From Deltaproteobacteria bacterium Ga0077539 (GTDB taxonomy: Bacteria > Myxococcota_A > Polyangia > Polyangiales > Ga0077539), in contig LNEO01000246.1 in the NCBI GenBank assembly GCA_001465015.1, positions 124,001 to 188,000 on the forward strand: a stretch of DNA of 64,000 nt, in the 5' to 3' direction. The number at the start of each line of letters is the position of its first letter. Position 1 is the first letter of the stretch. The notes under the pieces were generated by a model. The model had not been told where the DNA came from. It did no database searches and saw only the letters and a list, made by a program, of their open reading frames with translations. Of this stretch, positions 7,632 to 40,603 are shown piece by piece. A program made the translations under genes and the position numbers.

Positions 7632-9020
7632 ATGGCGAACGTTATGGCGATCGTGAGCAAGGCGGTCTTCGACAAGATGCTCGGCAAGACCAAGCCGAAG
7701 CTCGGCGATGTGCTAGCGACCAATCAATACGTCAGCAACAACCCCAGGCTCGAGTCGGTCAAGGGCGGCGGGGCGCTGTTTCTGGTGACCGTTCGTCCTC
7801 CCAACGAGGACCTCTGGCTGGTCGCGATCCTCGAGTCCCCGAAGCACAACGGGACCGCGTGGGTCTCCGCTGCCAACAGCACGCCGATGACCGACCTCGG
7901 CAAGGTCAAGGACAAGCTCAAGTTCGACTCGGGCAACGGGATCCAAGCGAAGGCCGGCGCGCTCGGGATGTCCCTGCAGACTCCGCGCGTGCTCACGGAC
8001 GGCGACGTCGCGCTCTTGCGCGCGGCCTCCGGCGGAGCCGCGAAGCCCGACGCGAAGGCGGCCGAAAATGCGCCCACCAATTCAAAAGACCAGGCAAAAA
8101 CCAAGGCAGTTTCGATCGACCCGTGGCGTTGGCGCGCTCCGCGCTCGCGACGCGAGGCGCTGTCGCTGGCGTTTTGGACGGCGCTCAACCCGACGGAGCA
8201 AGAGCGGCACGCGCGCGCGATCGAGCGCGCGTCGAACGGCGCTGTTCGGTACGTGCGCGGGCACGCCTTTGGCGGCCCAACGATCCCGCTGTTTGTTCAT
8301 CGTGCGACCGGGATGCCGATGCACCTCGTGCCGGGCGGCTCTTTCGCGATGGGTCTGTCGCCGAGGCAAACAGAGCTGCTCTCGAAGCTCGACGGCGGCG
8401 GTTCGATCGCGGATGACGACGCGCTTCGCGCATCGGGGCCGATCGAGGTCGCGCCGTTTCTGCTCGCCGCTCGACCGATGAGCGCCGAAGGAATGATGGC
8501 GCTGCTCACCGGCGAGAGCGCGGACGCGAGCTCAGCGCAGGCGATTCGCCGCTCGAACACCGGCAAGTACGCCGCGCTGTTGGCCGAGAGCTCCATGGCG
8601 CGCGCGGCCTCCTCGCGGCTCGCTGTCATCGAAGCAGCGCTCGACAGCGCGGGGCTTCGCCTGCCGTCGGAGGCCGAGTGGGAGTGGGCGGCGCGCGGAG
8701 GCGGCGACGCGCTGTTTGTGTCGGGGTCGGACGAGCTCCCCACCGCAGCGAAGACCGCGACGAATCGACTGGGACTCGCGAGGATGGCCGAAGAGCCCGA
8801 GCTGTGCGCGGACGGGTGGAGCTCTTCGCACGAGGGAGCGCCGAAGGACGGACGCGCCCGCGCCAAGAGCGCCAACGGGCTTCGCGCGGTTCGCGGCGGC
8901 GCCGCCAAAGCGTGGGCGCAACGAACGGGGTGGAAGTGGCTGCTGACCGCCGCGCGACGTTCGAGCGCGGATGCGGCGGATGGCGCCGCGCTGCGGCCCG
9001 CGTTGTCGATCGCGTTGTAG
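7632..9020 (+). CDS. SUMF1/FGE-like domain protein with novel N-domain
   Basis: A 462-residue protein. Residues 1-130 form a separate domain (GGGALFLVTVRPPNEDLWLVAILE, GMSLQTPRVLTDGDVALL) that I associate only loosely with Myxococcota SUMF1-type proteins. A basic linker follows. The C-terminal part has the formylglycine-generating-enzyme fold signature: MHLVPGGSFAMG, LPSEAEWEWAARGG, NRLGLARMAEEPELCADGW and LRAVRGG. The cysteine pair that sulfatase-activating enzymes use is not visible near the end (only ELCADGW), so formylglycine synthesis is unlikely. Regulatory or EgtB/PvdO-like roles are possible. A GAGAGGG stretch precedes the ATG. Confidence 0.7.
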   Translation: MANVMAIVSKAVFDKMLGKTKPKLGDVLATNQYVSNNPRLESVKGGGALFLVTVRPPNEDLWLVAILESPKHNGTAWVSAANSTPMTDLGKVKDKLKFDSGNGIQAKAGALGMSLQTPRVLTDGDVALLRAASGGAAKPDAKAAENAPTNSKDQAKTKAVSIDPWRWRAPRSRREALSLAFWTALNPTEQERHARAIERASNGAVRYVRGHAFGGPTIPLFVHRATGMPMHLVPGGSFAMGLSPRQTELLSKLDGGGSIADDDALRASGPIEVAPFLLAARPMSAEGMMALLTGESADASSAQAIRRSNTGKYAALLAESSMARAASSRLAVIEAALDSAGLRLPSEAEWEWAARGGGDALFVSGSDELPTAAKTATNRLGLARMAEEPELCADGWSSSHEGAPKDGRARAKSANGLRAVRGGAAKAWAQRTGWKWLLTAARRSSADAADGAALRPALSIAL

Positions 9021-37381: not shown

Positions 37382-37408
37382 GCGGCGCGCGCCGCAAGTG
37401 CGCGCCGC
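37382..37408 (-). terminator. strong GC hairpin after hipA-like gene
   Basis: GCGGCGCGC (37382-37390) pairs with GCGCGCCGC (37400-37408) around a 9-base loop, and the first 14 bases are themselves a perfect palindrome. It lies just past the hipA-like stop and before the cytochrome gene on the same strand. There is no T-run, so intrinsic termination is uncertain. Confidence 0.4.
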
Positions 37409-37439
37409 GCGCAGCCCGCGACGACCCCGAGCATCGTCG

Positions 37440-38591
37440 CTACCCAGAGCGGTCATCGCTCTCGCGCACGTACCCCAGCCACCGCCCTCGAAACGCCTCG
37501 CTGATCGCGGCGTCCTCGCGCACCCTCGCGCAGAGAGCGGTCACGAGACGACGCACATCGTGCTCCTTGGTCCCGGCGATCGACGGCTCGATCCATCGGT
37601 CGGGCAACTCGTCCCCGCTCGGCGCGAACTTCATTGGAAGCACGTCGTAAAAGGGAGCGAGGCTCGGCTGGCCGCGTTCGTCGAAGAGCAAGCCGTAGTT
37701 TCCCAGGTGTGTGTCGTTGTTTCCGATCGCCCTCGAGAACTCGTGCACCACCTCGAAGCGTCGAAGCTCGTCACTCGACAGCCAGCCGGAGCAACGAAGC
37801 TCTATCGCGACGGTCCCGGCCTGCGCAGCGTTGACGATGCGGTACTGCGCTGCGGCGAGCCAATACCACGAAGCTGCGCCGATTCGGCCTCGCCCTTCGA
37901 CGCGGTCGAATCGCTCGGCGACGAGGCACACCCGATCGTCTACCAGCGTGATCCGCGCTCGAGCCGCAGGGATCGACGCGGCTGCAAGCGTCGCCGCGCA
38001 GTGCGACTCGAGTCGAAGAAGGTCTGCCCAACGCTGTCCGAGATCCGTCGAAACGGGCGGCGAAAACTTCACGAGCCAGCCTGTTCCGTCGGAGAGCCGA
38101 AGCGTGAATTTGGGTCGCTCGCCGCCCATCGAGCTCATCGCGTTCGTCTGCGCGCGCGCCTCGTCGATCAGCGCCGCGAACTGGGACTCCGCCTCCTCAC
38201 GCGCGGGCCCCGAGGTGCGTCCCTCACCGAAGATGCGCTGATAGCGCTCGTAGCTGCCGTCGCCCACGACGAGGTTGCCAGTCAGGTCATGGCCCGCGTT
38301 TTCGAGGGCCGCGAGCGTGTGCTCCGCCGTCCAGTCTCGCGGTCTCGCGGGCAACCCGAGCTCGGAAAACCACTGTGCGAACCGCGCGCCGATGAATCCT
38401 GACGGGGCCGCGTCCTGCATCGCCCAGGGGACGTCTTCTTCGACCGCGTGCTCTCCGACGTCGAGCAGCGGATAGCCGAGCGCTTCGAGCTCCAAACTTC
38501 GAACATGGGTCGAGAGTCGCAGCTGCCCGAGGCGACGCAGCTCGCCGCTCGGCGTCACGATTCGGATCGGCACGACGCGCGACGAACCCAT
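37440..38591 (-). CDS. HipA-like Ser/Thr kinase (orphan)
   Basis: A 383-residue protein related to HipA toxins, which phosphorylate glutamyl-tRNA synthetase and induce dormancy. Visible parts are the GERPKFTLRL-WLVKFSPP nucleotide strand with its Lys, LRLESHCAATLAAA, CLVAERFDR and the catalytic loop NNDTHLGNYG (the HipA N-x-D-x-H-x-G-N form), followed by YDVLPM. The N-terminal 140 residues resemble the HipA N-terminal domain only loosely. I chose the ATG at 38591; the frame is open to 38741. No HipB-like HTH antitoxin gene is next to it; instead a zinc-ribbon gene is divergent. Confidence 0.75.
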   Translation of the reverse strand: MGSSRVVPIRIVTPSGELRRLGQLRLSTHVRSLELEALGYPLLDVGEHAVEEDVPWAMQDAAPSGFIGARFAQWFSELGLPARPRDWTAEHTLAALENAGHDLTGNLVVGDGSYERYQRIFGEGRTSGPAREEAESQFAALIDEARAQTNAMSSMGGERPKFTLRLSDGTGWLVKFSPPVSTDLGQRWADLLRLESHCAATLAAASIPAARARITLVDDRVCLVAERFDRVEGRGRIGAASWYWLAAAQYRIVNAAQAGTVAIELRCSGWLSSDELRRFEVVHEFSRAIGNNDTHLGNYGLLFDERGQPSLAPFYDVLPMKFAPSGDELPDRWIEPSIAGTKEHDVRRLVTALCARVREDAAISEAFRGRWLGYVRESDDRSG

Positions 38592-38767
38592 CGCGATCGA
38601 TGATGGTAGGCGTTGCGACGAACCACAACGACCAACTTCGCGCGAGTCTCGAGGTCGGTGCCAGATCAGAGCGAAACGTCGATGGTGGGCTCCGACTCGC
38701 GAGGCACCGAGCGGTGCTCGCTGCAGCAGTTGCTGGGACACACACTTTCACGATAGCGACCTCGCCC

Positions 38768-39025
38768 GTGACCATCGTTCAACGATACGTCTGTCGAAGC
38801 TGCGCCTATCGATCCTCACCGATCGGCGTGATGCCGTTCAGCCCGACGAGCCCGACGAACCAACGCTTCTTCACCTGCGGCCCCTGCAAAGAGCTCGTGG
38901 CTGCAGTGTCGACTGTTGGCGGCGTCGGCGTTCGTTGCACTCATTGCCAGCGAGACGGGCTCGCGCCCCTCTCCGGCTGTCCGCGCTGCGGCAGCAAAGA
39001 CGCCCGCTTCGAGACCGACCGCTGA
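38768..39025 (+). CDS. small zinc-ribbon protein
   Basis: An 85-residue protein from the GTG at 38768, with four CxxC pairs (CRSC, CGPC, CTHC, CPRC) that make two zinc ribbons. There is no other motif. It is divergent from the hipA-like gene across 176 bases. The neighbourhood could make it a regulator of that kinase, but the sequence gives no direct evidence. Its stop lies 31 bases before the palindromic array. Confidence 0.6.
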   Translation: MTIVQRYVCRSCAYRSSPIGVMPFSPTSPTNQRFFTCGPCKELVAAVSTVGGVGVRCTHCQRDGLAPLSGCPRCGSKDARFETDR

Positions 39026-39056
39026 CGCGAGGACACGCGACGTCCCGATCCCCCAA

Positions 39057-39166
39057 CGCTTGATGCTCAGCATCATCCCGCTTGATGCTCAGCATCATCC
39101 CGCTTGATGCTCAGCATCATCCCGCTTGATGCTCAGCATCATCCCGCTTGATGCTCAGCATCATCG
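39057..39166. repeat. five tandem 22-bp palindromic units
   Basis: Five contiguous 22-base units (starts at 39057, 39079, 39101, 39123, 39145) are identical except the last base of the last unit. Each holds a perfect 15-base dyad, TGATGCTCAGCATCA (7+1+7), flanked by CGCT and TCC. The period is two helical turns, so all dyads face the same side. The array sits between the convergent 3' ends of the zinc-ribbon gene and glnA. It may be a protein-binding array, a bidirectional terminator or a VNTR. Confidence 0.9.
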
Positions 39167-39193
39167 CCGTCCCCCCGCGTCACGCCCTCGCGC

Positions 39194-40603
39194 TCACACG
39201 TCGTAGTACAGGAAGTACTCCATCGGCGTCGGGCGCAGGCGCACCGGGTCGTGCTCGTTCGAGCGCTTGTACTCGATCCAGGTCTCGAGCAGGTCCTTGG
39301 TGAACACGTCGCCCTTGAGCAAGAACTCGTGGTCCGCTTCGAGCGCGTCGAGGGACTCGCCGAGCGAGCCGCACACCTGCGGGACGCTCTTGGCCTCTTC
39401 GGGCGAGAGCGAGTAGATGTCCTTGTCCAGCGCGTCGCCAGGGGACAGGCGGTTCATCACGCCGTCGAGCCCCGCCATCATCATGGCGGCAAACGCGAGG
39501 TAGCCGTTGCACGACGGGTCGGGGAAGCGCACTTCGATTCGCTTGGCCTTCGGGCTCGACGAGAACATCGGGATGCGGATCGACGCCGAGCGGTTGCGCG
39601 AGCTGTACGCGAGGTTGACCGGCGCTTCGTAGCCCGGAACGAGCCTGCGATAGCTGTTCACCGTCGGGTTGGTGATCGCGTTGAGGGCCTTGGCGTGCTT
39701 CAGGATTCCCGCGATGTAGTGCATCGCCATCTCGCTCATGCCTGCATAACCGTCGCCCGCGAAGAGGGGCTTGCCGCCCTTCCACAAGGACTGGTGCACG
39801 TGCATGCCCGAGCCGTTGTCGCCGTAGAGCGGCTTGGGCATGAACGTCGCGCTGCGCCCGTTGCGAAACGCGACGTTCTTCACGACGTATTTGAACCACA
39901 ACAGCTTGTCCGCCATCGTCACGAGCGAGTCGAACTTCATGTCGATCTCGCACTGACCGGCGGTGGCGACCTCGTGGTGCGACGTCTCGACCTCGATGCC
40001 GACGGCCTCGAGGCACTGGCACATCTCCGTGCGCAGATCCATCAGGCGATCGTGGGGCGCGACGGGGAAGTAGCCCTGCTTGTGGCGGATCGTGTAGCCG
40101 AGGTTCTTCTCGCCGCTGCCCGAGTTCCACGTGGCCTCTTCGGAGTCGACCGAGAAGAACTGCGCGTGCGGCTTCACTTCGTAGCGCACGTCGTCGAACA
40201 CGAAGAACTCCGCCTCGGGACCACAGTAGATCGTGTCCGCGATGTTCGTGCTCTTCAGGTACGCCTCGGCCTTGCGCGCGATGTAGCGCGGATCGCGGCC
40301 GTACGGCTGGCGCGTGATCGGATCGACGATGTTGCAGATGAGCGACAGCGTCGGCTGCGCCATGAAGGGGTCGATCCGGGCCGTGGGCGCCTCGGGCAAG
40401 AGCAACATGTCCGACTCGTTGATGGCCTTCCACCCGCGGATGGAGCTTCCGTCGAAGCCGAAGCCATCCTCGAACGCGTCCTCCGTCAGGCGATGAAACG
40501 GCACGCTCGTGTGCTGCCACTGACCCAACAAGTCACAGAACTTGAGGTCCACCATCACGACGTTGTGCTTGCGTCCGAGCTCGATCGCGTCCTTCGATTG
40601 CAT
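39194..40603 (-). CDS. glnA: type I glutamine synthetase
   Basis: A 469-residue GSI-type enzyme that makes glutamine from glutamate, ammonia and ATP as a dodecamer. Active-site blocks are [53 protein letters not shown] and [14 protein letters not shown]. The adenylylation Tyr sits in [12 protein letters not shown], so it should be of the regulated beta subtype. The start at 40603 has AAGGACTC upstream; the frame is open to 40690. It follows glnB on the same strand after 93 bases. Confidence 0.97.

Follow-up and report, generated by a model that had tools for sequence, protein, structure and literature searches.

A phased palindrome array beside glnA as a candidate binding platform for an undescribed, expanded family of myxobacterial proteins

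The window, meaning the whole 64-kb stretch of DNA that was analyzed, belongs to a myxobacterial genome (G000) assembled in fragments that total 9.7 Mb. A small zinc-ribbon ORF and glnA converge there on a tandem array of five identical 22-bp units (Table 1). The array begins 32 to 36 bp past the end of the plus-strand zinc-ribbon ORF and lies 31 bp from the glnA stop codon, which bears out an earlier sequence-only reading that had put it at the 3′ end of glnA between convergent genes. A simple codon-usage model served for gene calling; it did not call the zinc-ribbon ORF, which is nevertheless plausible. On the far side of this ORF is a HipA_C-domain gene, within a segment that differs from genus-mate G001. 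The G001 counterpart of the segment is about 13.4 kb long and contains a GmrSD-type gene along with a TGATGC array of its own. The TGATGC array (contig C9; L132 9609-9645) is flanked by the GmrSD-type gene and a divergent SEC-C gene, near glnA.

Table 1. Positions of the array, its dyads and neighboring features in the window
Feature	Position	Strand	Basis
Array, five 22-bp units CGCTTGATGCTCAGCATCATCC	39057..39165	.	TRF and sequence
Dyad 1, TGATGCTCAGCATCA	39061..39075	.	Dyad scan
Dyad 2	39083..39097	.	Dyad scan
Dyad 3	39105..39119	.	Dyad scan
Dyad 4	39127..39141	.	Dyad scan
Dyad 5	39149..39163	.	Dyad scan
glnA, syntenic in G001 and G002 but there without array	39194..40603	-	
Small zinc-ribbon ORF, convergent with glnA, start probably about 38766	38600..39025	+	
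HipA_C-domain gene, within segment differing from genus-mate, next to array	37440..38591	-	
Segment non-syntenic with genus-mate G001; array at its glnA-side edge	37382..39190	.	

Each unit contains one 15-mer dyad, an odd-length palindrome with a central C, and the five dyads showed 0 mismatches. TRF described the array with a period of 22, 5.0 copies, 100% match and a score of 218, well above every other tandem repeat in the window (the runner-up scored 94). A scan for the dyad on both strands, allowing up to 3 mismatches, gave 11 matches versus at most 4 in 100 shuffles. The five phased, near-identical dyads of the sequence-only reading are therefore real, as is their location, but the end coordinate it gave, 39166, needs a small correction: the last unit ends in CATCG, which places the end of the exact repeat at 39165. 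The accompanying view that all dyads occupy one face of the DNA holds approximately. With a helical repeat of 10.5 bp, a 22-bp unit spans 2.1 turns, so adjacent dyads lie near one face but drift by about 34 degrees per unit and are not exactly aligned.

A genome-wide search for the 15-mer, proposed with the original reading, found the exact dyad in two further G000 arrays; in that genome it is confined to these three arrays, every one at a 22-bp period. The window array has 5 copies with the spacer CCCGC, an array on contigs C96 and C449 has 4 copies with CCGCC, split across overlapping contig ends, and an array on C337 has 3 copies with GCCCG. Contigs C96 and C449 overlap by ~98 bp inside the array (L029 8807-8904, L031 1-98), so the assembly broke at the repeat; G000 and its relatives are fragmented assemblies with contig ends inside arrays. 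Genus-mate G001 carries two arrays of the same dyad, of two copies each at 22 bp, and such arrays were absent from the other genomes of the family examined. When 84,980 species were scanned for two dyad cores with a gap of 4 to 24, many matches had spacings other than 22 bp, and the lone 22-bp case was G001. Because spacers are identical within arrays and different between them at one fixed period, these results suggest a conserved site combined with local duplication of units. The varying copy numbers (5, 4 and 3 in G000, 2 and 2 in the genus-mate) agree with the recent expansion proposed earlier. The window array is a dispersed, gene-less member whose extra copies probably reflect recent local expansion.

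The array on contig C96 starts 7 bp behind the stop codon of a gene (8069-8815) for a 248-aa basic protein, and the G001 orthologue of this protein (81% identity) has an array at the same place in different surroundings. Searches of Pfam, NCBIfam, PHROGs and PADLOC turned up nothing convincing for the C96 protein. Its AlphaFold model was confident (pLDDT 88, pTM 0.67) and consisted of a basic disordered tail, a helical domain and two beta-hairpin/helix units. Foldseek returned nothing significant for the whole model, which had no recognizable DNA-binding fold, or for the N-terminal domain alone (pLDDT 93). The nominal top Foldseek match, TasH, was rejected (E 1.1, probability 0.08, TM 0.15), and a TPR match in a PDB sequence search was disregarded as the sum of very weak repeats.

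Relatives of the C96 protein make up an undescribed, expanded myxobacterial protein family, about half of whose genes have their own array alongside. Members are basic (median pI, 10.1), with N-terminal tails rich in K, A and P. There are about 14 in G000, 8 to 10 in G001, 12 in G116 and 9 in G120. The family is patchy within the order, including between close relatives, and a phylum-wide sample contained only one weak member outside the order. No relatives were found in viral contigs (two queries), and no homologue was found in plasmid records. A search covering mostly open-access literature found no description of the family.

Linkage between gene and array extends across the family. A tandem palindrome array was detected within 400 bp of the gene in 32 of 64 members; the other 32 had no detectable array within that distance, perhaps owing to divergence or contig ends. 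Array matches near the 64 genes had a period of 20, 21 or 22 bp in 48/64 cases, the other 16 being doubles; at 20 to 22, there were zero matches in 20 surrogates of these flanks matched in composition. In a scan of 400 bp on both sides of the genes over periods of 14 to 59, 66 of 69 dyad pairs were at 20 to 22 or double, while the same palindrome scan of 116.6 kb of control DNA produced 8 dyad pairs, none at 20 to 22. Members from G116, G120, G010 to G012, G023, G026, G042 and G044 were obtained after the pattern had been seen and constitute an independent test: arrays were present beside members from all of these genomes but G120. Example dyads, with their periods, are GGACCGATCGGTCC (21), CGGCTACGTAGCCG (20), GGGCAGATCTGCCC (20), GCCAACGTTGGC (21 or 22) and CGGATCATATGATCCG (22).

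Related family proteins share dyad and period. Mantel tests showed a correlation of protein distance both to dyad distance (r=0.38) and to period (r=0.28); in each case 0 of 5000 permutations reached r. Among protein pairs at less than 50% distance, the period was common to 18/18. Four dyad classes are confined to genomes that hold the matching protein clade; when classes B, C and D were searched in 12 family genomes, each was present only alongside its clade. In G000 these three classes occupy about 10, 10 and 8 loci, respectively, with 0 for reversed-pattern controls. The array is usually on one side of the gene, and several clades carry it behind their own gene. Recurrence of the window dyad at a 22-bp period with other spacers, together with its linkage to a gene, upholds the earlier description of a multi-operator-like array under selection.

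The gene and its array behave as a unit with sharp borders. In G000, the paralogues on C315 and C36 are homologous over 840 bp (89%), with the gene's stop codon as one border and a point 4 bp past the array as the other, and have nothing in common outside the gene-array unit. The C96 and C75 orthologues share a stretch that opens 20 bp ahead of the ATG and closes at the edge of the array; their surroundings differ. Gene-less class-D arrays are flanked on one side, in fixed register, by 22 bp similar to the 3′ end of the coding sequence of the gene (matches of 19/22, 19/22, 17/22, 15, 15, 14 and 14; null maximum, 16 in 4000). Class-B arrays have outer units in common on both sides and are clustered near one another and near family genes. 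At one Septu locus, an array is present in G000 and missing at the same place in G001. These borders, flanks and the presence/absence difference indicate that arrays turn over faster than the surrounding genes.

Dispersed arrays are nearly all intergenic, with many in convergent and few in divergent positions and no preference for promoters. A considerable fraction borders defense or conflict systems: brxC/pglZ/brxD and pglW of a BREX type-2-like system, Septu ptuA/ptuB in several loci, HEC-01A/B, a GmrSD-type gene, a MoxR-vWA ternary system and a ParE-type operon. In several loci, arrays lie 50 to 135 bp upstream of brxC, ptuA, HEC-01A/B, the GmrSD-type gene, the MoxR-vWA system or the ParE-type operon. 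With kinases set aside, defense proteins accounted for 8/60 proteins flanking arrays versus at most 2-3/49 control genes from the window, at most a suggestive enrichment. At the BREX type-2-like system (L298 6918-17897, L297 13323-17644), one dyad class occurs at both brxC and pglW, and a family gene is divergent from brxC. Synteny with a close relative ends on one side within ~50 bp of the window array and of 3-4 of the 5 class-B arrays tested, which is partly expected for any intergenic site beside variable genes. One class-B array is conserved between relatives (C248, corresponding to G001 C55:30198).

Since about half of the family genes carry their own array, the window array is probably a platform for protein binding rather than a neutral repeat. 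A partnership between protein and site is very likely on these data. On balance, we favor reading the window array as a dispersed platform that a cognate DNA-binding protein, probably acting as a local regulator, would occupy cooperatively. The 248-aa C96 protein, encoded elsewhere in G000, would recognize the window dyads, with one protein dimer per palindrome. The fixed two-turn spacing of 20 to 22 bp suggests that dimers on adjacent dyads bind cooperatively, and neighboring dimers may touch one another along one side of the DNA. We infer for the family as a whole that each protein binds its dyad in this dimeric, cooperative manner with a regulatory output; the palindrome is particular to each clade, usually lies next to the clade's own gene and recurs at a few more intergenic positions. 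Most likely, such binding would exert local control (repression or silencing, perhaps via bridging) over neighboring variable genes, a good many of which are defense or conflict systems. Promoter-proximal copies at defense operons suggest such regulation or silencing. Against a regulator, many arrays, including the window array, sit at 3′ ends between convergent genes, unlike a promoter operator, and several clades have theirs behind rather than before their own gene.

Proteins with their own dispersed palindromic sites are of a known kind; the protein family involved here is undescribed. Closest in context is BrxR, a WYL-type defense-island regulator that binds inverted repeats (PMC9122601, PMC9122589): a small protein near BREX or other defense systems, with palindromic sites in promoter regions. 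BrxR has a WYL domain with a winged HTH, whereas no member of the present family had a WYL Pfam match. BrxR sites are upstream of the regulator gene and of defense operons; the arrays described here are upstream at brxC, at HEC-01 and at their own gene in several clades but downstream in other clades, and they also occur at 3′ ends and beside housekeeping genes, as tandem phased dyads. An anonymous repeat is now tied to an unnamed, expanded family that offers dozens of natural protein-DNA specificity pairs. With this system one can test how the specificity of binding coevolves with an operator spacing of 20, 21 or 22 bp and whether a protein that is not a transposase can move its own palindromes through a genome; it also bears on how large myxobacterial genomes control many defense systems.

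The regulatory reading is ranked first, and second comes the possibility that gene and array form a small spreading module, laid out like RAYT genes with REP palindromes. We regard this as a serious but less probable explanation, and both could hold. The array would then be the recognition sequence, gene-less arrays would be nonautonomous or decayed copies, and proximity to defense genes would merely reflect the tolerance of variable regions for insertion. The 3′-end copies, unit borders and local clustering suggest such a module, and the class-D and class-B flanks, the Septu locus and the intergenic placement without promoter preference fit it as well. RAYT genes have palindromes beside the gene, dispersed intergenic copies and a palindrome of their own in each gene lineage (PMC2817692; REPINs are described in PMC3116915), and REP/RAYT is the closest known system in layout: palindromes are scattered between the genes of one genome, are lineage specific and to some extent accumulate near the gene. 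The differences are considerable. REP/RAYT has a Y1/HUH transposase, defined by an HUH motif and a catalytic Tyr, to which the present family is unrelated: Pfam Transposase_17 had no match in 31 full-length members or 58 N-terminal domains, and among 64 members HxH occurred in 5, the best His column reached 41% and the best Tyr column reached 67%. Lacking this transposase-like catalytic signature, the family is not a member of REP/RAYT. The REP/RAYT gene lies between two inverted palindromes with a GTAG head, while here there is usually one tandem symmetric array, mostly on one side. REPs number tens to hundreds per genome and keep no fixed tandem period, but the present arrays are few (2 to 11 per dyad class per genome) and phased at 20 to 22 bp. 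Neither a clean empty site nor a target duplication was observed. With about the same probability as the spreading module, the system might be a new class of minimal self-spreading modules in Polyangia, in which a ~250-aa protein (fold unassigned) and a phased palindrome array specific to it relocate as one unit, leave gene-less arrays, have diversified into many mutually exclusive protein/palindrome pairs within one genome and have partly been taken up as regulators of defense loci.

It is unlikely that the arrays are chromosome-architecture or partition sites used like parS, with the family acting as centromere-like or domain-boundary proteins. The palindromes, at 14 to 17 bp, are similar to parS in size, some are clustered near the gene or, in class B, near one another, and the K/A/P-rich tails would suit this role. 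The family nevertheless lacks the ParB N-terminal and HTH domains and matched no ParB, ParA or partition family, a Borrelia partition family reaching just E 0.23. A housekeeping role sits poorly with as many as 14 paralogues per genome, each having its own sites, and with their patchy presence among close relatives; tandem phased arrays are themselves unlike parS. Plasmid iterons, another suggestion of the sequence-only reading, are likewise tandem repeats of about 22 bp, but the linked protein matched no replication-initiator family and the present loci are chromosomal (the glnA context) and dispersed, with a full palindrome as the unit. CRISPR and TIGR arrays share regular short repeats but have unique spacers, while the spacers here are 5 to 7 bp and identical within an array.

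A transcription terminator or RNA hairpin element is highly improbable. The window array folds strongly on both strands (z of -6.8 and -7.9), its position is convergent, and class-D spacers contain A/T runs. Yet the bidirectional terminator once proposed found no backing, with 0 terminator-like sites and no T-run in the array and no Rfam match near the gathering score; most spacers lack a T-run, and the conserved dyad sequence and exact helical spacing are unneeded by terminators. Least probable of all is a neutral VNTR or slippage product, which identical units and a copy number of 2 to 5 would fit and which the sequence-only reading had linked to variable copy number with no conserved dyad elsewhere: copy number does vary, but the dyad recurs at unlinked loci with different spacers and the same period, which refutes a simple neutral VNTR, the linkage to a protein family would be left unexplained, and slippage probably accounts only for the number of units.

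Some further features of individual arrays were observed. The outer flanks of class-B arrays (L199-L213; e.g., L209 and L212, ~1470-1570) contain A/T tracts about one helical turn apart, so that the core dyads are perhaps flanked by curved DNA. On G001 contig C55 (L291 17250-17282), a phased dyad pair, GTCACTGGTGAC/GTCACCGGTGAC, with a period of 21 and no family gene nearby, resembles the dyad beside the family gene on G000 C263. The longest gene-linked array seen comprises six copies of GGCGACGTCGC at 20 bp and lies behind a G116 family gene (L276 3765-3865).
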